NCBI GenBank assembly: GCA_030587365.1
Contig: JAUQZE010000002.1
Span: forward strand, 1 to 64,000
DNA length: 64,000 nt
Reading direction: 5' to 3'
Source: Candidatus Freyarchaeota archaeon
Lineage (GTDB): Archaea > Asgardarchaeota > Jordiarchaeia > Jordiarchaeales > Jordiarchaeaceae
In this document: positions 5,123-19,071 of the stretch, one piece after another
How the letters are laid out: each line of letters opens with the position of its first letter
How positions within the stretch are numbered: the first letter of the stretch is position 1
Translations under genes and position numbers: made by a program
The notes under the pieces: generated by a model
Databases searched by the model: none
The model's input: the letters and a program-made list of their open reading frames with translations, nothing else
Told to the model about the DNA's origin: nothing

Positions 5123-5638
5123 TCACGTTTCCTCAATGGTGTATCCTTGCTTTGCTTGTTCTGTGAGTCCCTCGTCTTCCGAGTACTCGATTATATCTTT
5201 AATAACCCACTTTACTGCTTCTTCGCCGGTTAGAAGATTTTTTATTTCCTTTTCGTAATTCGCTGGTTTCAGAATAAGGAACCAACCATCTGTGTAAGGA
5301 TTTCTAATATTATGGGGTGGAGAGGACACTCTATCCGGATTAACTTTGACAATGGTTCCGGCTAATGGTGCATAGAAAGGTCCAATATACTTTGCGGTTT
5401 CAAGAAGTCCGTAGGGTTGGTCCTGTTTGAGTTGCGTTCCTGTGGGGGGAAGTTCAATGAGGTATGGTAGGGGATGAGAAATGGTGGTAATCATTATGGG
5501 TATGGCACCGTAGTAGTCCAAGCCTATCTGGAGATTTCCGTCGTCCATTTTTTTAACCCAAGTATGGCCACGTTTAATGTGCGAATAGTGTAGATTTAGA
5601 GGGAAGAACATTTCTCCTATTTTTGCGACTTTGGCCAT
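5123..5638 (-). CDS. gcvH: GcvH-like lipoyl-carrier protein
   Basis: A 171-residue protein with the glycine-cleavage H-protein layout. HTWVKKMDDGNLQIGLDYYG (25-44) matches the H-protein opening, ETAKYIG (80-86) carries the lipoyl lysine K83, and FYAPLAGTIVKVN followed by YTDGWFLILKP completes the domain. The C-terminus is about 40 residues longer than usual. No P- or T-protein gene is nearby. In some organisms GcvH-like proteins (LbpA) serve sulfur-oxidising heterodisulfide-reductase-like systems, and DsrE-type genes are present in this window, but that link is inference. ATG start; a small zinc-ribbon gene lies upstream on the same strand. Confidence 0.75.
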   Translation of the reverse strand: MAKVAKIGEMFFPLNLHYSHIKRGHTWVKKMDDGNLQIGLDYYGAIPIMITTISHPLPYLIELPPTGTQLKQDQPYGLLETAKYIGPFYAPLAGTIVKVNPDRVSSPPHNIRNPYTDGWFLILKPANYEKEIKNLLTGEEAVKWVIKDIIEYSEDEGLTEQAKQGYTIEET

Positions 5639-6295: not shown

Positions 6296-6691
6296 TTATT
6301 TTTTGTATTTGGGGTGTCCCGGTGGGTAATAGGGTTCGTAGGACGCGAAGGTTTTGTATTGTTGTAGAACCGCGACGTCGCCTTTGATTTGCATTTCTCC
6401 AGAATAGTATTTCTCCTGTAAGTCCACTTCTTTTGTGTGCTGGCCGACCCAATCATCGCTGTTCATTATGATGACGGCGTTGATGCCTGTTGGTTCCTTG
6501 GTCACTATTTCTGTGCTTTCGAGTATGCCATCCTTTTTAAATGTAAACAGGTATCCCCGTTTCAGGTCTCTCATCCAGAAACACATTTTGAAGGGTTCCC
6601 ATCCTTCACCATATCCTTCCTCAGCCATAGCCTTGATTCTTTTAGCGCTGTGCTGATAACACGCATCAGCCATTTCTGCGGTAGCCACCAT
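6296..6691 (-). CDS. SCP2 sterol-binding-domain protein, copy B
   Basis: A 131-residue SCP2 domain, clearly the sister of the protein at 808-1200 (same length and motif, GEMQIKGDVAVL). ATG start with GAGGTG a few bases upstream. It is the last gene of the minus-strand run corrinoid protein - UroD-fold methyltransferase - SCP2, with a 33-bp gap to the methyltransferase. That the SCP2-UroD order is kept in both copies argues that the two proteins act together. A pocket for a hydrophobic methyl donor, or delivery of a lipid-like substrate, is a hypothesis only. Confidence 0.85.
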   Translation of the reverse strand: MVATAEMADACYQHSAKRIKAMAEEGYGEGWEPFKMCFWMRDLKRGYLFTFKKDGILESTEIVTKEPTGINAVIIMNSDDWVGQHTKEVDLQEKYYSGEMQIKGDVAVLQQYKTFASYEPYYPPGHPKYKK

Positions 6692-6724: not shown

Positions 6725-8101
6725 TTAGGGTTGTTCCCAGCCATTGGGGTAGGAACCATACTTTTTAGATGCGTCTGCCCAGGCTTGATAGTTTTCCATG
6801 GGTATCCAGTAGTCACCCGGTCCAGGGTTCCAGTACTTGCTCTTCGGATCCTGACAAGCAATCTTGAATCTCTCTTTCTCATAGGCAGCAATGTCCTCAA
6901 GTTTAGCCGCCTTAATCTTATCCCAGTCTGGGAAGTCGAACCACATCTTATCATAGTGGAGAACTGTGTTAAGAGCGTCCTGTATTGGCCACACGTGGTC
7001 GCTGCCCACCAAATATGCGTATTTTCCGTGCGCCTGAAGTATGATGTCCACATGGCGTCGGAAGTCTCCACCGGTTATACAGGTTCCTCCCGGAGGCCAG
7101 TGGACCTCTTTGCACAGATCCACATGATATGGTATCAGGTCTGCGGTCATGTCTGTACCCATAGTGTTAAGACCATCGCAGAAGAACATTATGTCCGTGC
7201 CGGCATCCCTTACCGCTCTGTGGTGTCTGATGCAGAATCTGAGAGCCTCTCTCATACACATGTGATACCATTCAGGATTTCGCTTGTACATTATGGCCCT
7301 CTCTCGAATGCCTAGAGTTGGACCGATGCCTGCTCCGGCTGTGCCGATGGGACCTACACAGGTGTTTGTCATGAGGGGCATTACTCCCCAGAGCCCTGCC
7401 TTTCTGAGATACTCCTTAATAATCCTGATTTCCCATAACTGGTGGGCGTATGCTCCATAGTCCGCTTCTGGTACTTTGTGTGAGAGAAAGGGCGCAGTCC
7501 GGTACGGTAACCATGGAACCTTGAAGCCGGTCTCCATTGCTCCAGCGCTTCTACACACAGGAGCAGAGGTTTCCTTTAGGTAAACGTGTCCACCCCACTC
7601 GGCTTCGGAGTAAGTGATTTTGTGGGTGAATATGATGTCTGTAGCGAACTTCGCCACAGCCATGGTGGTTGCCAGTACGTGTAGCTTAGGATACCTGTGA
7701 AAGTCCACTCCCTTCAAAATTACACCATAGGCATCCAATAGTCTTGGGGCGTTGGTTGCAAGTGCGTAGTTGCCTCCCATTACGGGGCAGCGGTCTCTCT
7801 CAACGCCGTAGGCAGTAGCCCAGTATCTGTCTAGGGGTGTCATTTTTTCCTTGGCGATATTCTCATGCATCTTAAGCAAGATGCGCTCCATTATGACCTG
7901 CTCTTCCTCGGACCATTCGGGGGGTTTGAAGTCCCAGTACCAGTCGGGTATTTTCAGCTTCTCGTATATTTCCCATTCGCTGTAGGCGTAGTCGCACCAG
8001 GGAGCTGCCTTCTTCCCACCGGCTTCGGTTGGCTTCTCGGAGACGGTGGTGTATGGCTCGGGTTTCTTATACCAGGATAAGTATTCTTCACCTTCGGTCA
8101 T
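6725..8101 (-). CDS. Uroporphyrinogen-decarboxylase-fold corrinoid methyltransferase, copy B
   Basis: A 458-residue duplicate of the protein at 1267-2643, differing mostly by conservative changes. The TIM-barrel landmarks (AVRDAGTDIMFFCDGLN, VGSDHVWPIQDALN) are kept, and again the expected zinc-site HxC strand reads CITGGD. This gives a free cysteine but no histidine. The start ATG has GAGGTG eight bases upstream. The corrinoid gene ends 21 bp upstream, so the two are almost certainly co-transcribed. That makes copy B the best candidate for the partner methyltransferase of the corrinoid protein. Whether it methylates or demethylates the cobalamin cannot be told from sequence. Confidence 0.85.
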   Translation of the reverse strand: MTEGEEYLSWYKKPEPYTTVSEKPTEAGGKKAAPWCDYAYSEWEIYEKLKIPDWYWDFKPPEWSEEEQVIMERILLKMHENIAKEKMTPLDRYWATAYGVERDRCPVMGGNYALATNAPRLLDAYGVILKGVDFHRYPKLHVLATTMAVAKFATDIIFTHKITYSEAEWGGHVYLKETSAPVCRSAGAMETGFKVPWLPYRTAPFLSHKVPEADYGAYAHQLWEIRIIKEYLRKAGLWGVMPLMTNTCVGPIGTAGAGIGPTLGIRERAIMYKRNPEWYHMCMREALRFCIRHHRAVRDAGTDIMFFCDGLNTMGTDMTADLIPYHVDLCKEVHWPPGGTCITGGDFRRHVDIILQAHGKYAYLVGSDHVWPIQDALNTVLHYDKMWFDFPDWDKIKAAKLEDIAAYEKERFKIACQDPKSKYWNPGPGDYWIPMENYQAWADASKKYGSYPNGWEQP

Positions 8102-8122: not shown

Positions 8123-8770
8123 TTATTCAGCCTCTTCCATTAGTTCTGAGGCTAACTGTACTGCTGCTAAAGCATCTCTTGCAAAGTATGCACCTACAGA
8201 TTTAGCTAATTCGGGGCCTGTAGCCCATCCGCCGATCATGTATTTGACGGGAAGCTTCTCCTTATCGATCATTTCCTTCAATGTTTTTAATTTGTCCAGA
8301 CAGCCGGTAATCGCGGATGCTGCGCCGATTATGTCTGCTTTTTCTCTTTTAGCACCTTCGATGAACTTTGGTAAAGGTACATCTTCACCCAAGTCCGTGA
8401 CCGCCCAGCCAGCGGATTCAAACATTGAGATAACAACGGATTTTCCTATGGTGTGCAGGTCTCCCTCCACCATTCCAATAACCAGTTTTCCGGCCGCTTC
8501 CGCCTTTTCCGCTTTCAGGTGGGGCCTTATTACTCCTAGTACCGCCTGCATAGATTCGCCGCTCATCAGGAGGTCGGTGAGTGAGGCTCCTCCGAGTCCG
8601 GATGCGTACATTTCTCCGGCTTTGAGCATTCCCGGGGTGCATCCCTTGTTCAGTATGTCTATGGCGGATATTCCTTGTTTCAGTGCCTGCTTAGCAAGGT
8701 CCGCAGCGAGTAAGTCGTCACCATCTATTAATGCTTTGGATAACTTATCAAAAATTTCTTCTTTCGACAT
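8123..8770 (-). CDS. Methyl-carrying corrinoid protein (MtaC/MtbC type)
   Basis: A 215-residue corrinoid carrier with a helical cap (residues 1-90, including LNKGCTPGMLKAGEMYASG) and a Rossmann-type cobalamin domain. DLHTIG (104-109) supplies the lower axial ligand His106; the usual form is DxHDIG. GGWATG near residue 180 forms the nucleotide-loop pocket. The length equals that of MtaC/MtbC proteins. It lies between the fused chaperonin (96 bp upstream) and UroD copy B (21 bp downstream). A TATA box at 8834-8843 gives it its own promoter. Expected role: shuttling a methyl group from donor to MtrH-like or UroD-fold acceptor enzymes. Confidence 0.9.
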   Translation of the reverse strand: MSKEEIFDKLSKALIDGDDLLAADLAKQALKQGISAIDILNKGCTPGMLKAGEMYASGLGGASLTDLLMSGESMQAVLGVIRPHLKAEKAEAAGKLVIGMVEGDLHTIGKSVVISMFESAGWAVTDLGEDVPLPKFIEGAKREKADIIGAASAITGCLDKLKTLKEMIDKEKLPVKYMIGGWATGPELAKSVGAYFARDALAAVQLASELMEEAE

Positions 8771-8866: not shown

Positions 8867-11800
8867 TCACTTTTCGTTTAACGCCTTTTCGGATTTATCC
8901 GCCGTTATTTTTTCTTTTTCTAATATTACCTCATCTATTCTCAGAATAGTTTCGGCTATCTCATTTGCTGACTTAATCAGATGTGTCTTGAGGCTTAACG
9001 GTTCTAAAACTTTTAGAGTCATAATGTTCTCTAGTTTTCCCTTATCGCTGATTCCGGCCCATACATTTTGGGGGTTTTCGTGCAGAGCCTTGAGCTCAGC
9101 CAAAGTTTCCAATGGATTCAATCCAGAGTTTTCCGCTAGGGTTTTGGGTATTGATTCAAGAGCCTTTGCGTATTTCTCTACTGCTAGTTGTTCTCTTCTA
9201 GAAAAATTCTTTGCATATCTTTTGATCTCTTTGGCAAGTTCTATTTCCACCGCCCCGCCTCCCGCGACTACTTTACCTTCCATAATTACAGCCTTTAAAA
9301 CTTTTAACACGCTACGGAATACTCTCTCCGCTTCACTCAGTATATCCTCGGTGCCCCCCCTGATTATAATACTGGCGCATCTTACCCCTGAACAGTTAAC
9401 GAAAACGAGTTTCTTCTCACCGATTCTTCTTTCCTCAACAATTTCCGCAATTCCAAGATTCTCCTCTCTCAAATCATTTAGGTCGGTTACGATTTTTCCC
9501 CCGGTTGCTTCAGATATTATTTTGAGATCCATGCTTGGTAGCTGAGCAACAGTTAAAATCCCGGATTCCGTGAGAAAATGTGCTGTTAAGTCATCAACGA
9601 CTTTTGTACATAAGACAACATTGGCTCCCCCACTCTCTATCTTCTTCACCATATCCCTCGCCAACTCGTTTAGAGTGTCTAGATGAACTTTATAATCATC
9701 GGAGCTTCGGATACGAATCTCCAGCTCTCTTCTAAAAATCTGTTGGGAGACCCTCAACCAACAATCCAGCAATGCGATCCTGGCTTGTTCAACTCTTTTT
9801 GGCATCTTGGGGTTGATGATTTCTCTTTCCAGAATAACTCCCGGGAAGAGTTCACTTTCATTAAGGCTTTTCCCCTTTTCTTTCAATATCTTGATTTTTC
9901 CAGTATCAATAGTGGGGGTTTTCTTTTCTTCTGCTACGCTGTTTATTGCTCTTACAGCCATTTCAGCGAATAACTCTTTTCCATCAGCGATTTTCCCGCC
10001 TATAGTTGTTAGGGCGACTTTTTTCAGAGTTTCAGAATCCTCGTGGCCTATGGTTAGTGCCATGTTGTTTAAAAGTTCCAAAACTTTTTTGGTCGCTTCT
10101 TTGTAACCGTTTATAATCACCGTGGGGTGTACTTTCTGGCTCAACAGTTCCTCGGCGTTCTTCAGCAGCTCTCCTGCTAGGATAACGCTGGCTTTCGTCC
10201 CATCACCTATGTATTTACTCTGAGCTTCTGTGAGGTCGACTAACATTTTTGCTGCGGGATGCTTAAGGTACATGAACCCAAGAATAGTTGCCCCATCACT
10301 GGTATATTTTAGGCCTCCTATGTTGTCTATGAGGAGTTTGCTTCTTCCTCGGGGACCAAAGCAGGGTTTTACTGCGTCAGCGATGACACTAAAAGCCGAT
10401 ATATTGTTGAGAGTGGTTTCGAAAACTTTTTCCCGCGTCTTGATTTCCTTTAGGGGACGCATATAATCCAGCTTTTCCGACTCTTCAAGTTCTTCGGCTG
10501 CAAATATATCATCTATTCTGAGAATCATTATTGCAGCCTCGTAGGCAGATTTTATAGCTTGGGTTTTCACAATGAAGGGTTCGTAGACTCCGAGACTCCT
10601 TAGATCTTTGATTTCCCCATCAGTTACATCTATGCCGACATAGGTTTCTCCTGAACCGTGTCTCCTTCTCAGCTCTGAGATCTTGGTCAATGCGTCAAGA
10701 CCCAAATTTTTGGCAAGCAAAGAGGTTAACGCTTCTAGAGATTCTGCGAAAGCCGTCCATGCCAATTGTTCTTTTCCGTTTCCTTGGGTGGTGGTTCTGA
10801 TTCTTTTCGAGGTTTCAGTTTCTGAGGCTCCCCCACCCACTAGTATCAGGGGGTTCTCGACCACATCCTTTACTGCACAAACTGCGTCATGAACTGCTCT
10901 TTCCACCTCATCCAGAATGCTTTGGGCTCCTCCCCTCAGAAGAACCGTCAAGGTGAATGGGTTTTCACACTGCTCAACGAGTATTATTCTTTCTTCTCCG
11001 AATTCCTTTTCTCGGACAACACCTGCGTATCCCAGATCTTCTGGTTTAAGGTCGTTAATATCCGCTACGAGTTTGCCGCCTGTTGCTGAAGCAGCGTTTT
11101 GGATATTAGCATTTCCCACCCACTCAGCACCGAGAATTCCTCTACTAGCCAAGTGGTACTGGGCGAGGTCGTCGATTCCTTTTTCGGAGAAGACAACGTT
11201 CACACTCAGTTCTGACAGTTTCTCAACCATTTGTTTTATTATTGCTTCTTCTTCTTCCAAAAAATCTTTTATTCGCTCTGGATTCTCTATTAGAATTTTG
11301 GTATCGAATTCGGTTTTTTCAATTTCCAGAGGGCACTTAATAAGAGCTATTCTTGCGTTTTCAACACTTTTCGGCATTTCCTTATGGGCGGCTTCCTTAT
11401 TTAATACCACGCCCTTAACCAACTCGCTGTCTGCAACTACGCCCCCCAATTTCTTTTCAATTACGATTTTTTGAACATCAACAAAACGCTTTTCACCAAC
11501 ATTTTTTGAAACGTGTAAGACAGCATCCACAACCATTTTCGAAAGAAATTCACACAGCTCTAAGGTGAGCTTACCCATCATAGCATTGACTGCTACTTTT
11601 TTCAGCATCTCCCTATTGGTTGGATCAATTAGGATGGCAATTTCTTCAAGAATCCTTAAGACCTCTTTGAAGGCCCTTGAGTATCCCCGTATTAGGGTTG
11701 TAGGATGAATTCCTTTATCAAGCAGTTGTTCAGCCCTGCTCAGAAGCTCACTGGCAAGAATCACCGTTGTCTTTGTTCCATCCCCAACCTCCAGGTCTTG

Positions 11801-12040
11801 CGTCTCGGCGGCGTCCTTAAGAACCTTGACTGCAGGGTGACCTCCCCCCACCTTATTCAAAATAGTAAAACCGTCCCTTGTTATCGTAACGTCCCCTTTT
11901 TCATCAACAATAAGTTTATTCATGCCGGTGGGGCCAAAGGAACTCTTAATGAAATCCGCTAAGGTTTTGACTGCGACGATACTCTCTCGTAGAGAAGACA
12001 AGTCCTCTGAAGAATTATAGGAATAGTTATCTCCAGACAA
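8867..12040 (-). CDS. Two group II chaperonin subunits fused in one polypeptide
   Basis: One uninterrupted frame of 1057 residues encodes two full thermosome-type subunits joined near residue 530. Normal subunits are about 540-560 residues. Each half has equatorial, intermediate and apical parts. First half: FGPTGMNKLIV (35-45), RDGFTIL, VGDGTKT (85-91), a D in VHDAV before GGGASE, and VKTQAIKSA. Second half: FGPRGRSKLLI, SDGATIL, IGDGTKA and GGGAVEIEL. There the position of the catalytic aspartate (Asp386 of the methanococcal chaperonin) reads FRSVL, with serine. The second half may therefore bind but not hydrolyse ATP. TTG start. Located upstream of the corrinoid operon. Likely builds mixed rings in which each fused chain fills two positions; this is inference. 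Confidence 0.9.
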   Translation of the reverse strand: MSGDNYSYNSSEDLSSLRESIVAVKTLADFIKSSFGPTGMNKLIVDEKGDVTITRDGFTILNKVGGGHPAVKVLKDAAETQDLEVGDGTKTTVILASELLSRAEQLLDKGIHPTTLIRGYSRAFKEVLRILEEIAILIDPTNREMLKKVAVNAMMGKLTLELCEFLSKMVVDAVLHVSKNVGEKRFVDVQKIVIEKKLGGVVADSELVKGVVLNKEAAHKEMPKSVENARIALIKCPLEIEKTEFDTKILIENPERIKDFLEEEEAIIKQMVEKLSELSVNVVFSEKGIDDLAQYHLASRGILGAEWVGNANIQNAASATGGKLVADINDLKPEDLGYAGVVREKEFGEERIILVEQCENPFTLTVLLRGGAQSILDEVERAVHDAVCAVKDVVENPLILVGGGASETETSKRIRTTTQGNGKEQLAWTAFAESLEALTSLLAKNLGLDALTKISELRRRHGSGETYVGIDVTDGEIKDLRSLGVYEPFIVKTQAIKSAYEAAIMILRIDDIFAAEELEESEKLDYMRPLKEIKTREKVFETTLNNISAFSVIADAVKPCFGPRGRSKLLIDNIGGLKYTSDGATILGFMYLKHPAAKMLVDLTEAQSKYIGDGTKASVILAGELLKNAEELLSQKVHPTVIINGYKEATKKVLELLNNMALTIGHEDSETLKKVALTTIGGKIADGKELFAEMAVRAINSVAEEKKTPTIDTGKIKILKEKGKSLNESELFPGVILEREIINPKMPKRVEQARIALLDCWLRVSQQIFRRELEIRIRSSDDYKVHLDTLNELARDMVKKIESGGANVVLCTKVVDDLTAHFLTESGILTVAQLPSMDLKIISEATGGKIVTDLNDLREENLGIAEIVEERRIGEKKLVFVNCSGVRCASIIIRGGTEDILSEAERVFRSVLKVLKAVIMEGKVVAGGGAVEIELAKEIKRYAKNFSRREQLAVEKYAKALESIPKTLAENSGLNPLETLAELKALHENPQNVWAGISDKGKLENIMTLKVLEPLSLKTHLIKSANEIAETILRIDEVILEKEKITADKSEKALNEK

Positions 12041-12404
12041 TTCGAGTCCCTTAGAATAAAAAATTCTTCTTACTGCTTGTAAAAAATTTGTAGATTTTCA
12101 GTTGAGGCATACTAAGTTTCTATACAGATTAATATTTTGTCCGACCCTTTCATTATATTTTATGGATTGCCTAGAAGTTTTGCACTGTTCTCATATTCTA
12201 TGGTTGAGATTTTCGCAATCACATAATAAAAATTAATAAGCTAAAATAATAACAAGTTCATATTCTACTACTCTATACGATTTAGAATCGCACAAACACA
12301 AAAAACGTGGATTAACAAACGAGCTTAGGTCGGATGGAAGACCCATTAACTCACTCTGATAACCGAGTGCAAGACCGTGAATGTTGAAAAGTGAGGTGTA
12401 CGAT
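12041..12404. other. Divergent spacer between fused chaperonin and mtrH
   Basis: About 360 bp with no convincing gene. It must carry promoters for the minus-strand chaperonin and plus-strand mtrH operon. ATAAAATATAAT on the minus strand near 12155-12166 resembles a TATA box but is over 100 bases from the chaperonin start. GAGGTG at 12393-12398 is the mtrH ribosome site. No clear operator was seen. Confidence 0.35.
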
Positions 12405-13325
12405 GTGTTTGCTTTTGAAAAGGAACAAAAGGTTTGGGACATTAATGGTGTAAAAATCGGTGGCCAACCGGGTGCTTATCCCACAGTATTGATCGGAAGC
12501 ATTTTTTATGATAAACACAAAATTGTTTCAGACCGTCAAAAGGGAATATTCGATAAGAAAAAGGCGGAAGAGCTAATCAACAAGCAGGATGAGATGTCCG
12601 ATAAAACCGGGAACCCCTGCATATTGGATATTGTGGGGGATACCGCGGAAGCTCTCGAAAAACACATTGATTTTGTGGCTTCAGTAACAAAGGCTCCCTT
12701 TCTCGTGGACAGCACTCTTCCAGACGCTCGTCTGGCGGCGATTAAATACGCTGTTGAAGCGGGATTAGTTGAGCGGGCTATCTACAATTCGATAGACGTG
12801 CACTCCAAAGAGAGTGAACTTAACACTCTTAAAGAACTCGGTGTAAAATCCAGCATGATACTCGTGTTTAGCCCCAAGGCTTTGATGCCGGAAGGCCGAA
12901 TAGAGTTGTTAAAGGGTGCTGGCGGTGAGAAGGGATTAATCCAAAAGGCGCAGGAGGCGGGAATCAAAAACATGCTTGTGGACACCGCGGTGCTTGACGT
13001 TGTGAGCATATCCTTCGCAGCGCAAACCATATACTCAGTGAAAAACGAGTTCGGACTTCCTTCAGGATGCGGCCCCGCAAACGCCATTACTGCCTGGAAA
13101 AAGATCAAAAAAGAATTCCCACCAGCCTCGTATAAGGCGTGCATATCCGGCTCTGTACTGGTAACGGCTATGGTGGGTGCAGACTTTGCCTTATACGGTC
13201 CCATTGAGGAGGCTGAATCAGTTTTCCCCGCCTGTGCTATGGTCAACGGTCTTGTAGCATACTATAACAAAAGAAAATATCGGATAAGACAGGAGCCTTC
13301 GCATCCTTTAAACAAAATATTCTAG
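12405..13325 (+). CDS. mtrH: MtrH-like methyl-tetrahydropterin:corrinoid methyltransferase
   Basis: A 306-residue protein opening VFAFEKEQKVWDINGVKIGG, the standard MtrH beginning, and containing VDSTLPDARLAAIKYAVEAG and the TAVLDVVSISFA strand of the pterin-binding barrel. The start is GTG 12405, because GAGGTG lies six bases before it and because homologues begin there; an ATG at 12381 would add eight residues containing the ribosome site. MtrH moves methyl groups between tetrahydromethanopterin and a corrinoid. The other Mtr subunits (A-G) are absent here, so it probably works with the soluble corrinoid protein at 8123-8770. It heads an operon with dsrE/F/H-like genes. Confidence 0.9.
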   Translation: MFAFEKEQKVWDINGVKIGGQPGAYPTVLIGSIFYDKHKIVSDRQKGIFDKKKAEELINKQDEMSDKTGNPCILDIVGDTAEALEKHIDFVASVTKAPFLVDSTLPDARLAAIKYAVEAGLVERAIYNSIDVHSKESELNTLKELGVKSSMILVFSPKALMPEGRIELLKGAGGEKGLIQKAQEAGIKNMLVDTAVLDVVSISFAAQTIYSVKNEFGLPSGCGPANAITAWKKIKKEFPPASYKACISGSVLVTAMVGADFALYGPIEEAESVFPACAMVNGLVAYYNKRKYRIRQEPSHPLNKIF

Positions 13326-13366: not shown

Positions 13367-13723
13367 ATGGGTAAAGTAGCAATTTTACTATTCACTACTC
13401 CTCTACAGTTTCAGAATTCGGATACCGCGATTGAGTTTATAAACGCGGCTCTTGAGAAGGGACACGAGGTAACTGTTATCGGTATGGGAGACGGTGTTTA
13501 TAATGCTGCCAAATTTTTGATCGTGGAGGATATGCCCTCTCCTGTGGGCAGGTTTAAGGAACTGAGTGAGAAAGGAGTGAAGTTCGTTAACTGCTTCCCT
13601 TGTTGCACCGCTCGTGGACTAAAACCCGAGACAGACTTCATTCCCAGTGCTTCCATAGAGAGCACAACCACAGTCCTGGAAATCATGAGGGATGCAGACC
13701 GATTTTTCGCTATTACGATATAG
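13367..13723 (+). CDS. DsrE-family sulfur-carrier-like protein
   Basis: A 118-residue DsrE/TusD-fold protein starting MGKVAILLFTTPLQFQNSDT. The family's first-strand-and-helix unit is followed by VIGMGDGVYNAA and a cysteine cluster CFPCC near residues 76-80, where DsrE/TusD carry the persulfide cysteine. ATG start. It is 41 bp after mtrH and 16 bp before the DsrF-like gene. DsrEFH proteins relay sulfane sulfur in sulfur oxidation or tRNA thiolation. Next to a methyl-transfer system the role may instead concern methyl-sulfur compounds or persulfide handling (inference). Confidence 0.75.
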   Translation: MGKVAILLFTTPLQFQNSDTAIEFINAALEKGHEVTVIGMGDGVYNAAKFLIVEDMPSPVGRFKELSEKGVKFVNCFPCCTARGLKPETDFIPSASIESTTTVLEIMRDADRFFAITI

Positions 13724-13739
13724 GGAGGGAGATAATGCG

Positions 13740-14096
13740 ATGAAATTGCTGCTTATAATTAGGAAGCCTCCGTTTGGCTGGATACATATTGTTGAAGCCG
13801 TCCGATTAGCAGCCGCGGCAGGGTCTCTCACAATTCCGGTAACTCTTCTTTTCATAGACGACGGCGTTTACTGTCCCATGAAGAATCAGTTTCCAAAAGC
13901 TATCGGATACTCAGCCATAGACCGGTTTCTTAAAATGTTACAGAATTTCGAGTCCAAATTATATGTGGTTAAAGAATCGCTTGATGAGAGGGGTCTCACT
14001 ATAGATGATTTAATTCCCGGCCTTCCCATTGAAAGTATCGTTCAGAGTGATGTAGCGAAAATTATTGCTGAAAATGATATCGCAATGGCTTTCTGA
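13740..14096 (+). CDS. DsrF/TusC-like protein
   Basis: A 118-residue protein starting MKLLLIIRKPPFGWIHIVEA, matching the DsrF/TusC opening, with LFIDDGVYCPMKNQ in mid-protein. The ATG at 13740 was chosen because GGGAGGGAG lies just upstream; the longer open frame from 13692 overlaps the previous gene. It sits between DsrE-like and DsrH-like genes in the standard E-F-H order. One cysteine (about residue 43) is present. Confidence 0.7.
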   Translation: MKLLLIIRKPPFGWIHIVEAVRLAAAAGSLTIPVTLLFIDDGVYCPMKNQFPKAIGYSAIDRFLKMLQNFESKLYVVKESLDERGLTIDDLIPGLPIESIVQSDVAKIIAENDIAMAF

Positions 14097-14105
14097 GGGA
14101 GATGA

Positions 14106-14450
14106 ATGAAGATGGCAACATTAATACTCGTATCCAAGTCGCCTTATATCACGAAGGATAACGTGTATGCGTTTGAAGCGTCCTTAAATTTGAAGAATAT
14201 GGACGAAGAAGTCGGTGTGATGTTAATACAGGATGCGGTGCTTAGCGCAATTCAGGGACAGAAGGGACAAATAGAAGAACTTCTGAAAACCGCCCTCGAC
14301 GCAGGCGTTAATGTGTACGTTTTGAAACCAGATGCTGCAGCTAGAGGAATTCCTGAGGAAAGAATGATAGAAGGAGTACAGCTGGTGGATTACGGAGGAT
14401 GGGTTGACCTCACTATGGAGAAATACCAGAAAATTGTGAGTTGGACATAA
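14106..14450 (+). CDS. DsrH/TusB-like protein lacking cysteine
   Basis: A 114-residue protein with the DsrH/TusB pattern: a hydrophobic first strand (ATLILVSKSPY), then GVMLIQDAVLSAIQGQKGQ and a C-terminal VDYGGWVDLTMEKYQKIVSW that matches the family tail. It has no cysteine at all, although classical DsrH has one near its loop. It may therefore be a structural rather than sulfur-binding subunit. It follows the DsrF-like gene by nine bases, with GGGAGATG overlapping the gap, and precedes an FMN-binding protein. Confidence 0.7.
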   Translation: MKMATLILVSKSPYITKDNVYAFEASLNLKNMDEEVGVMLIQDAVLSAIQGQKGQIEELLKTALDAGVNVYVLKPDAAARGIPEERMIEGVQLVDYGGWVDLTMEKYQKIVSWT

Positions 14451-14494: not shown

Positions 14495-14911
14495 GTGGTT
14501 AAAATCCCAAGAGAGATAGCCAATCTTTTTAACGACCCGGAATCGGTAAAGGTTCTAGTAACACTGAACGAGTCTAATGTCCCTCACTGTGTTCCTATAG
14601 GCTCCCTTTCAATTCCATCCCCTGACATTATAGCATTCGCCGTAATCATGGCCGAGGAAACGCACAAAAATTTGCTGAATAACCCCGATAAAATAGTGAC
14701 CACCACCGCGGTTAAGGGTTCTTTGAGCTATCAGATAAAGGCGAAACCAAAGGAGTACTTAACCGAAGGAGTGGCGTTTGATGCCTTCAAACAGAGATTC
14801 GGAATCATAATCATGGACTCAGGACTGGAAGTTAAGGGAGTTTGGTTTTTAGAGCCCTTAGAGATCTACAATCAATCAGTAGGCCCTGAAGCAGGCGAAA
14901 GAACAGCATAA
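14495..14911 (+). CDS. Pyridoxamine-phosphate-oxidase-like FMN-binding protein
   Basis: A 138-residue split-barrel flavoprotein: MVKIPREIANLFNDPESVKV, then VLVTLNESNVPHCVPIGSL and VIMAEETHKNLLNNPD, the usual N-terminal two strands of PNPOx-like proteins. GTG start behind GAGGTT. It sits between the DsrH-like and chaperonin genes in the mtrH operon. Proteins of this fold bind FMN or F420 and carry out small redox reactions, so a reductant role for the corrinoid or sulfur carrier is possible. Substrate not deducible. Confidence 0.65.
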   Translation: MVKIPREIANLFNDPESVKVLVTLNESNVPHCVPIGSLSIPSPDIIAFAVIMAEETHKNLLNNPDKIVTTTAVKGSLSYQIKAKPKEYLTEGVAFDAFKQRFGIIIMDSGLEVKGVWFLEPLEIYNQSVGPEAGERTA

Positions 14912-14968: not shown

Positions 14969-16675
14969 TTGCTAGGAAAAGATACGTCTCTAAGCTTTAA
15001 GCCCGTGTACAAGCAGGAACGCGGGTTAGATTTAGCGATTCTTAAAAGTAACATCATGGTGGCCAGTATTATTTGCCAGATTGTAAGCAACACCATCGGA
15101 CCGTATAGTGTGAATAAGGCAATCCTCAAAAAGAATGGAGAAGTGCTGATAACTGGTGATGCATTCACCATACTGAAGAATCTTAAGGCAGAGCACCCTG
15201 TGGCTAAAATTTTGATTGGGATGGCGAAAGCGCAGGACGCCGTAGTGGGGGACGGAGTAGCCACCGCGGTAATTTTGGCTGGCGAGTTTCTCAGAAAGGC
15301 GGAAAACCTAATGGATCAAGGGCTTCTCCCCTCAACCATCCTAAAAGGATACGATTTAGCGTTAAAAAGGGCGACTAAAAAATTAGAGGAAATCGCTATT
15401 CCGGTAAAACCTGGTGATGAGGATATCTTAAGGAAGTCAGCTTCGACCGCGGTAAACACGAAGATTACCAGCTCACCCGAAACAGTAAATGAGTTCAGCA
15501 AAATGGCACTCGAAGTAACTAAACGAGTTATAAGTGAAGTTTCTGGAAAAACGAGACTGAAAATTGAAGACGTCAAAGTTATTAAAAAGAGGGGAGGTTC
15601 TCTCAGCGACTCCTACGTTGTGGACGGTTATGTTATAGAGGATAGGGAAATCGTTCACCCAGATATGCCGAGAAGGGTTGAAAACGCCAAGGTCGCTCTG
15701 TTGAGAAGTCTGGAATTAAAGGAAATTTCGGGGAGTTGGTGGGAAGCTTTGGGAAAAAATATGAAGATACAGGTCAGAGCACTGGAAGAACATAAAGCCT
15801 TCCTCGAAAAGAGAGTAGCGATAGTTAAAGAAATGGTAACTAGACTGGTTTCGTGTGGAGTGAATGTGGCTCTTGTGAATAAGGGCATAGATGAGATAGT
15901 TGAACATTATCTCGCACGAGCGGGGATACTGACTGTTAAGCGTGTTTTTCTACCGGATATTAACAGGATTGCCAAGTTGACTGGGGCATCTATCGTGTCC
16001 GACATTTTTAATGAGGATTTGACAAGTGATAAATTGGGAAAGGCGGAAGTGGTTGAAGAATGGAAGCCCTCCGAAAAAGAAAACTACATAGTAATTAGGG
16101 GATGCCCGGCTCAGGGGGCTTCAAGCGTCATTATAAGAGGGGGAAACGAATACGCTCTGGAAGAGGCTGAAAGAAGCCTCTACGACGCACTCCACGTTAT
16201 CAGGAACATTAAGGAAGACCCCCGAATTATACCCGGCGGCGGAGCATCAGAAATAGAACTCTCCAAGTGTTTAGGGGAATACGCACAGACATTTGAGGGA
16301 AAGGAACAGTTAGCGATTTTAGCTTACGCCGAAGCAATGCGAATAGTACCACAAACCCTAGCGGATAACGCGGGACTAGACACATTACACATTCTAACCG
16401 AACTAAAGGCAAAACACGGCGAGGGAATGATCTGGGCGGGTGTAAATGTGATCGACGGCCAGGTCGATGATATGCAAAAAATAGGGGTCTACGACCCGCT
16501 AAAGGTAAAGGTTCATGCGTTAAATGCAGCCACAGATGTTGCGAGAATAGTACTACGAATAGACCAAATCATACTAGCCAAGGACCGCAAGAAAGAAGAA
16601 GAACCCAAACCCGAAACAGAAACCGGAAAAAAGCAGATAGATGCTCTGAAAAAGGTTTATGATTTAAAGCTGTAA
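14969..16675 (+). CDS. Divergent group II chaperonin in the mtrH operon
   Basis: A 568-residue thermosome-type subunit of full length. GPYSVNKAIL replaces the usual GPKGMDK, ITGDAFTIL replaces TNDGATIL, and GDGVATAV replaces GDGTTTAV. The ATPase aspartates, including that of YDAL before GGGASEIEL, are retained. The second threonine-rich loop is changed, so activity may be altered. TTG start with GTGAG upstream. It closes the plus-strand operon after the FMN-binding protein, facing the RACE gene tail-to-tail with a 38-bp gap. Together with the fused chaperonin it gives three subunit types at one locus. Confidence 0.85.
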   Translation: MLGKDTSLSFKPVYKQERGLDLAILKSNIMVASIICQIVSNTIGPYSVNKAILKKNGEVLITGDAFTILKNLKAEHPVAKILIGMAKAQDAVVGDGVATAVILAGEFLRKAENLMDQGLLPSTILKGYDLALKRATKKLEEIAIPVKPGDEDILRKSASTAVNTKITSSPETVNEFSKMALEVTKRVISEVSGKTRLKIEDVKVIKKRGGSLSDSYVVDGYVIEDREIVHPDMPRRVENAKVALLRSLELKEISGSWWEALGKNMKIQVRALEEHKAFLEKRVAIVKEMVTRLVSCGVNVALVNKGIDEIVEHYLARAGILTVKRVFLPDINRIAKLTGASIVSDIFNEDLTSDKLGKAEVVEEWKPSEKENYIVIRGCPAQGASSVIIRGGNEYALEEAERSLYDALHVIRNIKEDPRIIPGGGASEIELSKCLGEYAQTFEGKEQLAILAYAEAMRIVPQTLADNAGLDTLHILTELKAKHGEGMIWAGVNVIDGQVDDMQKIGVYDPLKVKVHALNAATDVARIVLRIDQIILAKDRKKEEEPKPETETGKKQIDALKKVYDLKL

Positions 16676-16713: not shown

Positions 16714-18606
16714 TTATCGGTTTTCTTCTAAATATTTCTTTATTGAGGGATAACCTTCCAGATTCTTATAAGGAATCAGGTTTGATTTGACGAATTCACT
16801 TTTGAAGCCTGGTTCAGCCATAAGCTCCACGTATCTTATCCATCTAGACAGTCTTCGTGCGGTTTTTCGAACATCCTTTGATATAAGAGCCATTTTAGCT
16901 CCTGCGAGAGCGGTATTCCCTGCAAACGTTATTTTTTCGGTGGGAATATCGGGAATGAGACCCAGAAACTTTGCACTCTCCGGGTTAATGTAGCTGCCGA
17001 AAGCTCCAGCTATGAAAGCCTTGTCTATGTCGTTTTCAGTCACTTCTTTCTTCTTCATTAGAACCGCACAGCCCGTGTGTATGGCGGCTTTCGCCAATTG
17101 AATTTCTTCCACGTCTTTTATGGAGACAGTAATGTTCTTTTCAATGTCTGTTTCTTCTTTCCAAGCTACCACGAATTCGGGCTTTCCCTCTGTTCTAACT
17201 ATTCGCGGTGTGTCTAGGTCGTTAAATTTTCCTCTCTCGGTGATGATTCCACACTTGAACATCTCAGCCACAACATCAATTATTCCGGAACCGCATATAC
17301 CAACTGGCTTTGAGCCTCCAATTGTTTCGTATTTAACCTCAAAATTTTTGGGTTGTATTTGCACCCTTTCAATAGCCCCAGTCACAGCCTTCATACCGTA
17401 CTGGATATGGACACCCTCAAAAGCGGGGCCCGCAGCACAGGAGCAACAAACAAGTTCCTCCTTATTGCCCACAAAAACTTCGCCGTTGGTACCAACATCC
17501 ACAAGCAGGCACATTTCATCCAGTTCATGAATGCCAGTCGCTAATACGTCGCCAACCGCATCTGCGCCCACATAGCCCGCAATATTAGGCAGAACGTAAA
17601 CACTCCCCCTAGGGTTAACATTTATGTTTAGTGTTTTCGCCCCGGCTATGACCGGGAATTTTACTCCCGGAACATAGGGTGCCAGGTGCAAATACCGGGT
17701 TTGGATACCTAGAAATAGACTGAACATTGCTGTGTTGCCCACGACTGTCAACTCGTAAATTTCCTTGGAAGCTACACCTGATTCTTCGCAAGCCATCTGA
17801 ATTATTCTGTTAATTCCTTCTGTTGCCAGATTCTGTAATCTCTGCTTATTCTCGTATCCCTCTTCCGCATAGGAAATTCGAGAAAGTATGTCTTCACCAT
17901 AAGCAATCTGAGGATTCTCTATGGATCCAACACCCACAACCTCCCCACTATTCAAATCGACCAGATACCCAACAATTTTGGAAGTACCAATATCAACTGC
18001 AAATCCAAAAACTCTGGAAGCGGTATCAGCAGGTTCAAAATCTATAATTTTCTTACTATCCAAAACGGTAACCGTCGCATTCCAATTCCCCTCCCTCAGA
18101 ACATCGGGAAGTATTCTGAGCAACTCATACTCAAATTCCAATTCTCGAAGATTAGACACCTTCTCCAAATTGCTCAAAATATTTACATCATCCGCAATCG
18201 GATTCTGAACAGTAGGCCTGTCCAAAACTGAAACTAAATTAATTTTCTTAACATTTGGATCAAGCTTAACAGGCTGTTCCATGCCATGTATTTGTATCTT
18301 CCTAACACTCAACCGACTCTCACTGGGAACAAATACAAGGGAACCTCCACGGATTGAAGCCATGCAAGCCAATCGATATCCTCGATTAATCTCTTCGGGT
18401 GTCAAGTGTTCCCTCTCTGTTTCGGATACCTCACTTAAGTTACTCTGATCCTCAACTATGATCCTGCATTTTCCACATTTGCCTTTTCCACCGCATTCGG
18501 AGCGTATTCCCGCTCCTCTCTCTTTCGACACATCTAGTATGGTAGATCCGCCGTCTGCTGTGAGTTTCTTGCCCTCTGGCTCGAACCGAACAACAAATCG
18601 TTTCAT
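16714..18606 (-). CDS. RACE-type reductive activator of corrinoid proteins (ferredoxin + DUF4445)
   Basis: A 630-residue protein. Residues 1-90 form a [2Fe-2S] ferredoxin domain with C38, C44, C47 and C81 (SECGGKGKCGKC and RLACMAS). The rest is the DUF4445/RACE part with ASKHA-type sugar-kinase/actin folds: FAVDIGTSKIVGYLVDL, VGNTAMFSLFLG, LLVDVGTNGEVFVGN and IAGAFGSYINP. Such proteins use ATP and an electron to re-reduce Co(II) corrinoid back to Co(I). The start ATG 18604-18606 has GGAGG seven bases upstream; the frame is open further but without support. Its presence here strongly supports a corrinoid methyltransferase system. Confidence 0.9.
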   Translation of the reverse strand: MKRFVVRFEPEGKKLTADGGSTILDVSKERGAGIRSECGGKGKCGKCRIIVEDQSNLSEVSETEREHLTPEEINRGYRLACMASIRGGSLVFVPSESRLSVRKIQIHGMEQPVKLDPNVKKINLVSVLDRPTVQNPIADDVNILSNLEKVSNLRELEFEYELLRILPDVLREGNWNATVTVLDSKKIIDFEPADTASRVFGFAVDIGTSKIVGYLVDLNSGEVVGVGSIENPQIAYGEDILSRISYAEEGYENKQRLQNLATEGINRIIQMACEESGVASKEIYELTVVGNTAMFSLFLGIQTRYLHLAPYVPGVKFPVIAGAKTLNINVNPRGSVYVLPNIAGYVGADAVGDVLATGIHELDEMCLLVDVGTNGEVFVGNKEELVCCSCAAGPAFEGVHIQYGMKAVTGAIERVQIQPKNFEVKYETIGGSKPVGICGSGIIDVVAEMFKCGIITERGKFNDLDTPRIVRTEGKPEFVVAWKEETDIEKNITVSIKDVEEIQLAKAAIHTGCAVLMKKKEVTENDIDKAFIAGAFGSYINPESAKFLGLIPDIPTEKITFAGNTALAGAKMALISKDVRKTARRLSRWIRYVELMAEPGFKSEFVKSNLIPYKNLEGYPSIKKYLEENR

Positions 18607-19071
18607 GAATTTGCCTCCAGAGCTGATAAAAAATAATATAAACATTATATTGATGTTTTTTATAAATTAAATAATTTAAATCATATTTCATAAATATAAA
18701 ATCTGTATTAATTCAAGCTGATTTTCCTAGTACGCAGCTCTCAAATTTTTATTTTGCGTACTTTACGGATTATTATCGTGAAATCATTTAAAAATAATTT
18801 CAAGAGAAGGTTAATCGGGGTGCAGTAATTCTAATGTAATGAAGATTTTGAACACAGTTGGAGAGTTCAAAACGTAGGTTTACTACAAAAATTTTAATTT
18901 TGAGATTGTTTATTATTAAGGAAATTAATATTTTACACAAAAAATTTTTTATAAATCAAATTAATAAATAGAATTTTCAAATTATTCTATATAAAATTTT
19001 AAATATTTGTTTATATTAATTAATTTATAGGAATTAAAAAGGGGATAACCACCTTTAGAGGAGGGTCTTAA
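18607..19071. other. Very AT-rich divergent spacer between RACE and the first GlcD-like gene
   Basis: About 465 bp with no coding signal. It is almost pure A/T from 18900 to 19030, with many overlapping TATA-like stretches, so single promoters cannot be assigned. GGAGGG at 19060-19065 is the ribosome site of the downstream flavoprotein. No operator or RNA was recognised. Confidence 0.4.

Follow-up and report, generated by a model that had tools for sequence, protein, structure and literature searches.

A fused double group II chaperonin gene with unequal halves in a conserved corrinoid/methyl-transfer gene cluster of Ca. Jordarchaeia

The DNA analyzed in this study (the window) comprises the first 64,000 nucleotides of contig JAUQZE010000002.1 (assembly GCA_030587365.1), which belongs to a metagenome-assembled genome (MAG) of the Asgard archaeal group Ca. 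Jordarchaeia (4.2 Mb, 50 contigs, completeness 88%, contamination 7%). On its minus strand, at positions 8867–12040, the window contains one open frame that is predicted to encode two group II chaperonin subunits fused in one chain. The frame, whose continuity over 1057 codons had been described in an earlier note on this DNA that names no strand, runs from a TTG start to a TGA stop without internal stops. The TTG start is supported by an upstream AAGGGA motif and by relatives of the gene, which have ATG or GTG at the equivalent position. Pfam family PF00118 (Cpn60_TCP1) matched the 1057-aa protein twice with 1025 bits in total. In the whole-genome search, the N-terminal domain was located at residues 27–515 (10496–11962, minus strand; 547 bits) and the C-terminal domain at residues 553–1042 (8915–10384, minus strand; 491 bits). 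Chance is not considered an issue for this two-domain match, and the two full domains agree with the proposal of the earlier note that a single gene codes for two fused subunits. The stretch between the Pfam matches (residues 516–552; 10385–10495, minus strand) contains the linker. Domain 1 ends at approximately residue 515 and good conservation within domain 2 sets in at approximately residue 540, which places the junction near residue 530, where it had been expected. At the gene level, the separate ~60-kDa subunits usual for group II chaperonins are thus replaced by a single frame, whose product has a predicted mass of ~117 kDa as estimated from its length. The fused chain has no Gly/Met-rich C-terminal tail; such a tail is present in a canonical paralogue on contig C39 of the same genome. 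No Rfam match was obtained anywhere in the window at gathering thresholds.

Archaeal thermosome models scored 1086–1110 bits over both domains, compared with at most 752 bits for models of the eukaryotic chaperonin CCT, and the protein is thus not closer to CCT. Using phmmer, about 500 residues of each half were aligned to thermosomes (residues 16–516 to 9rwp, and residues 530–1044 to residues 11–524 of 1a6d_A). The N half could be aligned residue by residue across the apical region of 9rwp and 1q3r without large gaps. By sequence alignment, the apical region corresponds to the group II lid with its helical protrusion and is not of the GroES-dependent type; for the C half, this assignment follows from the alignment range alone. 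The two halves share 38% identity.

The search for orthologous fusions that had been suggested in the earlier note was successful. The named close matches are all from Ca. Jordarchaeia MAGs, namely JAHAWU010000089 (QZM_A3), JAHQXB010000150 (RPF2), and DXJA01000068 (Ca. Jordarchaeum madagascariense). Three of the four genomes of the genus, including the window genome (G000), contain the whole fused gene; the uninterrupted copies on JAHQXB010000150 (genome G002) and JAHAWU010000089 (genome G003) are 67–68% identical to that in the window. In the fourth congener (G001), the gene is broken by a contig end within the N half. A search of 227 genomes of the phylum, which scored at most three candidates per genome under strict E-value limits and could have missed other fusions, listed a full-length, stop-free fused match in four genomes (G000, G002, G003, and G179). 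Genome G179 represents another Asgard family (f16), and its fused protein is 36% identical to that of the window. At 0.486, the GC content of the respective contig is close to the range of 0.454–0.484 seen in the other 12 contigs of G179 whose bases could be read. For G029, which has the same genus code and a GC content of 0.35–0.37 in the contigs read, no fused match was listed in the phylum search. Two scans of genome contigs rested on few peptide patterns and covered divergent and non-Asgard fusions poorly; within this scope, the scan with an alignment retrieved four loci, three from Jordarchaeia and one from Pelosinus with 22% identity, and the scan with a single protein confirmed no relative. 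No relative of the fused gene was confirmed in a scan of viral contigs.

These orthologues bear on whether the fused frame could be an artefact, either because a stop codon was missed between two adjacent genes or because the chains are separated through internal initiation. Tandem in-frame chaperonin genes with intervening stops do exist in other Asgard MAGs, and the window copy has one in-frame ATG in the junction region, at codon 527. However, the separate assemblies of the window genome, G002, G003, and G179 agree with each other and show no stop codons, and a missed stop or misassembly was rejected for this reason. In G002 and G003, no in-frame ATG, GTG or TTG occurs across residues 506–570, so that the chains of these organisms are not divided by reinitiation at the junction, and an origin of their C halves from internal initiation was rejected as well. 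The linker is conserved: between G002 and G003, the ratio of nonsynonymous to synonymous substitution rates was 0.171 (N half), 0.099 (linker, residues 516–545), and 0.172 (C half). Hence, purifying selection acts on both halves and on the linker, and we regard an artefact as very improbable.

The catalytic residues differ between the halves. They were compared across 56 distinct chaperonin domains with a minimum length of 280 residues, taken from the loci chosen for the phylogenetic tree, a set that does not comprise all Asgard chaperonins and in which the fragment row of G001 stops before the position of D386. Exchange of this residue in the chaperonin Mm-cpn (D386A) has been reported to leave ATP bound and not hydrolysed (PMC5019054). 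At the D386 position, the N half has Asp in all three complete Jordarchaeial proteins (D385 in the window; codon 10886–10888, minus strand), and the corresponding residue of the C half is Ser in all three (Ser910 in the window; codon 9311–9313, minus strand). The Asp of the NDG motif, which we take to be the second catalytic Asp of the group II pair, is present in the N half (D56 in the window); in the C half it is found in the window (D582) and is replaced by His in G002 and G003. The catalytic Asp pair is thus complete in the N half (D385 and D56) and incomplete in the C half. Both halves contain the GDGT and GGG motifs; the GDGT Asp of the C half is D613. Judged from these residues, the N half is apparently able to hydrolyse ATP and the C half apparently is not. 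The two full sets of chaperonin motifs described in the earlier note hence hold for the fold and the nucleotide-binding motifs, but not for catalysis, for which the C half lacks the Asp. In the fused protein of G179, the D386 position is occupied by Lys in the N half as well as in the C half, and an active N half is therefore not shared by all members of the family.

In the phylogenetic tree, the Jordarchaeial N halves grouped with the N half of G179 (support 99/96) and the Jordarchaeial C halves with the C half of G179 (100/98). After addition of chaperonins of G028 and G183 that are linked to MtrH genes (see below) and removal of the G001 fragment, the respective support values were 99/95 and 100/98. 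Of the 58 rows of the alignment, the four fused C halves contain the motif LLDCWL and the remaining 54 rows lack it; this motif was picked after it had been seen. The G179 branches are long (1.4–1.9 changes per column) and drew a warning from the tree program. In BLAST comparisons, the G179 N half matched canonical subunits best (up to 370 bits), slightly above the window N half (355 bits), and the G179 C half matched the window C half best (322 bits), just above a canonical subunit (316 bits). Forcing both G179 halves together lowered the log-likelihood by 25.9 (approximately unbiased (AU) test, p-AU = 0.09), and an independent fusion in G179 via local duplication is disfavoured. The half-by-half grouping, the LLDCWL motif, and the shared gene neighbours point to one ancient fusion that would have spread through descent or transfer. 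A tree in which N and C halves were constrained to form one clade was not rejected (p-AU = 0.458), and the halves may be mutual sisters and form a pair that arose by tandem duplication.

The fused gene is surrounded by genes with a putative function in methyl transfer. Divergently oriented to it, on the plus strand, lies a gene for an MtrH-family methyltransferase (12381–13325; PF02007, 344 bits), which is followed on the same strand by a DsrE-like gene (13367–13723), a DsrE/F-like gene (13692–14096), a third small gene labeled DsrH-like from its size and place only (14106–14450), a gene for a PNPOx-like small protein whose match was under the curated cut-off (14495–14911), and CPN2 (14969–16675), which encodes a second divergent, single-domain chaperonin with the catalytic Asp. 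A gene for a RACo/AcsV-like corrinoid activation protein follows on the minus strand (16714–18645). Immediately downstream of the fused gene, also on the minus strand, lies a gene for a corrinoid (B12-binding) protein (8123–8770), of which a fragment was found at the equivalent place in G002. Beyond it on this strand lie genes for a distant URO-D-like protein that is possibly a corrinoid methyltransferase (6725–8101; URO-D E = 0.0027, under the curated cut-off; best match to a solved structure E = 0.27), an SCP2-like small protein (6296–6691; PF02036, 25.6 bits at a cut-off of 21.3), and a GcvH-like (lipoyl) protein (5123–5638), whose homologue adjoins the fused gene in G179. The order and orientation fused gene (minus), MtrH, DsrE, DsrF, PNPOx, CPN2 (plus), and RACo (minus) is retained in all four genomes of the genus. 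The fused gene of G179 (minus) adjoins MtrH, DsrE, and DsrF (plus), with GcvH on the other flank, and the contig ends soon past the MtrH side. Thus, the fused gene belongs to a conserved corrinoid/methyl-transfer cluster.

Two further features of this region were observed. The proteins encoded at 1267–2643 and 6725–8101 both comprise 458 aa, match URO-D only below threshold, and are possibly unrecognised corrinoid methyltransferases. The row of DsrE-family genes next to MtrH (13367–14450), with GcvH-like and RACo-like genes nearby, may represent a combination of sulfur carriers and methyl transfer. A paper on Freyarchaeia, which states that the same organisms were named Jordarchaeia by another group, places MttB-like, corrinoid, and gcvH genes in the vicinity of MtrH; the single occurrence of “chaperon” in the main text of that paper is part of a protein category name (PMC11291895). 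The terms “chaperonin” and “thermosome” are absent from the main text of the description of Jordarchaeia (PMC9723677).

The fixed gene neighbourhood, together with the loss of catalytic residues (in G179 at the D386 position of both halves) and the long G179 branches, might also be explained by a protein that scaffolds or regulates the methyl-transfer module, built from chaperonin folds and no longer acting as a folding machine. On the other hand, the Jordarchaeial N half keeps D56, D87, D385, and GGG and shows no large gaps relative to thermosomes, and we consider such a conversion improbable.

The window genome encodes six chaperonin genes with seven chaperonin domains as determined by a whole-genome search, and each of the three congeners has six chaperonin places, some of them partial. 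CPN2 orthologues occupy the same locus in all four genomes of the genus (L028, 6668–8389; L029, 6767–8491; L030, 3821–5524, in addition to the window) and have Asp at the D386 position in all four. In the window, the CPN2 motifs are unusual (GPYSV, TGDAFT, GDGVAT). Another paralogue (G000:C20:7639-9156, L006; orthologues L041, L042, and L045) has GDGGK and, in four of four genomes, Asn at the D386 position; it is apparently an ATPase-dead subunit. In the group of the C28 paralogue, this position is Ala in G002 and G003 and Asp in the window genome.

This set of paralogues favours the main rival of an all-fused ring, a hetero-oligomer in which the fused chain would share a mixed ring with CPN2 or canonical thermosome subunits and the dead half would tune cooperativity, like the differing positions of CCT. 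The number of chaperonin genes and domains, the constant presence of CPN2 at the same locus, and the loss of the Asp in the C20 group and in part of the C28 group all suit this alternative, and it is favoured by G179, whose fused chain lacks the D386-equivalent Asp in both halves and would need active partners. However, no CPN2 orthologue was found in G179 (the best match had 42% identity, the level of canonical subunits; the MAG is 90% complete and a miss is possible), so CPN2 would not be an obligate partner there. We regard a mixed ring as a serious possibility that is nevertheless more probably wrong than right.

Unfused group II chaperonin genes in tandem and in one frame were found in G011, G021, G028, and G035, with one to three stops at the four junctions read. 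These genomes had been candidates for further fusions and were rejected, since stop codons separate the two genes; G183 (C98) also has a tandem pair according to the stop listing. The separator is TAG alone in G021 (L032) or TAG plus TAA in the pairs of G028 (L033), G035 (L034), and G183:C98, and read-through of the TAG in G021 would yield a fused chain. Unlike the fused C half, the tandem pairs of G011, G021, and G028 have the catalytic Asp, and the tandem unfused pairs branch apart from the fused halves in the tree. A chaperonin very near the Jordarchaeial canonical subunit was detected at G174:C83 (L061), in a MAG that has 9% contamination and carries a different family code, perhaps as a binning error or through recent transfer.

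Our preferred reading, held tentatively and with at least as much doubt as belief, is that the fused gene encodes a natural covalent pair, which would form rings of ATPase-live and ATPase-dead neighbours and perhaps serve the methyl-transfer module. The C- and N-termini of group II subunits are located at the equator, inside the cavity, and therefore a linker of ~25–35 residues could join ring neighbours. The two halves would lie side by side in an eight-position ring, with four chains per ring, as the earlier note had plausibly suggested, and two rings, and hydrolysing and non-hydrolysing positions would alternate by construction. Since the GDGT and GGG motifs are kept, the C half probably binds ATP and would remain at the stage before hydrolysis as the neighbouring subunit cycles. 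Such a machine may be devoted to folding or holding the products of the adjoining genes (the corrinoid protein, the URO-D-like protein, MtrH, and the Dsr-type carriers), possibly during cofactor loading, and the fused chain may act alone or with CPN2.

A dedication to methyl transfer can be compared with the location of chaperonin genes in other Asgard genomes. Divergent single chaperonins lie 177–186 bp from MtrH in G004 (C3, L074), G005 (C75, L075), and G007 (C211) and 385 bp from MtrH in G028 (C7, L125), and a divergent chaperonin was found within the MtrH cluster of G183 (C78, L126). The clusters of G028 and G183 also contain corrinoid and RACo-like genes. Twelve of 104 merged chaperonin places in 39 genomes were located within 10 kb of MtrH (expected: 2.15), a figure that includes many close relatives and relies on a model that ignores contig ends. 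When each genus was represented by a single genome (25 genomes, 61 places; a hand-reduced list in which some fragment rows were omitted), three places were located within 1 kb (expected: 0.20; P = 0.001) and four within 10 kb (expected: 1.01; P = 0.018). In this list, genus g15 is represented by G028, which has a match; the less complete G021 and G035 have none. Allowing for relatedness and post-hoc choice, the association of chaperonins with MtrH is suggestive, not strong. A broader scenario would be that divergent Asgard group II chaperonins are dedicated to corrinoid methyl-transfer enzymes and that one line fused two neighbouring subunits, which would give rings of alternating ATP-hydrolysing and ATP-locked subunits and a covalent, minimal route to an asymmetry for which CCT uses eight genes. 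We consider this scenario unlikely.

Several observations weigh against the covalent pair as a dedicated, alternating machine. Besides the Lys residues in both of its halves, the G179 fusion comes from a MAG with 12% contamination, although the GC content of its contig fits. An AlphaFold2 prediction of the fused chain from an eight-row alignment reached a mean predicted local distance difference test score of 35, and thus no model supports the side-by-side packing. The chain may also be cleaved after translation. As to the methyl-transfer link, when matches of the window genome are excluded from the per-genus list, two of 61 places lie within 1 kb of MtrH, a cut that was chosen post hoc (P ~0.018), and the 10-kb distance gives P ~0.27 at the same expectation. 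Conversely, a chaperonin is present within 10 kb at only 10 of 83 merged MtrH places (hand count) and in two of nine further MtrH stretches (L124–L132), several of which are on short contigs. Furthermore, no MtrH is listed on contig C28 of the window genome, which carries a relative of the MtrH-linked chaperonin of G004 and G005.

The question of how group II chaperonins changed from symmetric rings to rings whose positions are fixed and unequal is bound up with the origin of CCT in the line from which eukaryotes arose. An Asgard fusion with one apparently dead half would make both subunit order and ATPase asymmetry testable through a single gene and, if the link to corrinoid methyl transfer is true, would be an example of a chaperonin bound to one metabolic module. 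No natural fused chaperonin was found among the titles and abstract openings covered by the literature search, which did not extend to most subscription papers. The fused protein shares the same full-length domain (PF00118, NF041082/NF041083), an aligned apical region, and the nucleotide-binding motifs with the archaeal thermosome, but has two subunits per chain and a C half without the catalytic Asp. In CCT/TRiC, the neighbour order is fixed and the positions are functionally unequal, a principle that the fused chaperonin would share; CCT orders eight separate subunits, whereas the fused gene would fix pairs covalently. Engineered covalent GroEL, in which subunits are joined C-terminus to N-terminus, still forms rings; it is artificial and group I, whereas the fused gene is natural and group II and has unequal halves. 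Finally, one to five group II genes per archaeal genome have been reported, with five only in Methanosarcina acetivorans (PMC6420498). Like M. acetivorans, the window genome has several group II genes, but here there are six with seven domains, and one of them is fused.

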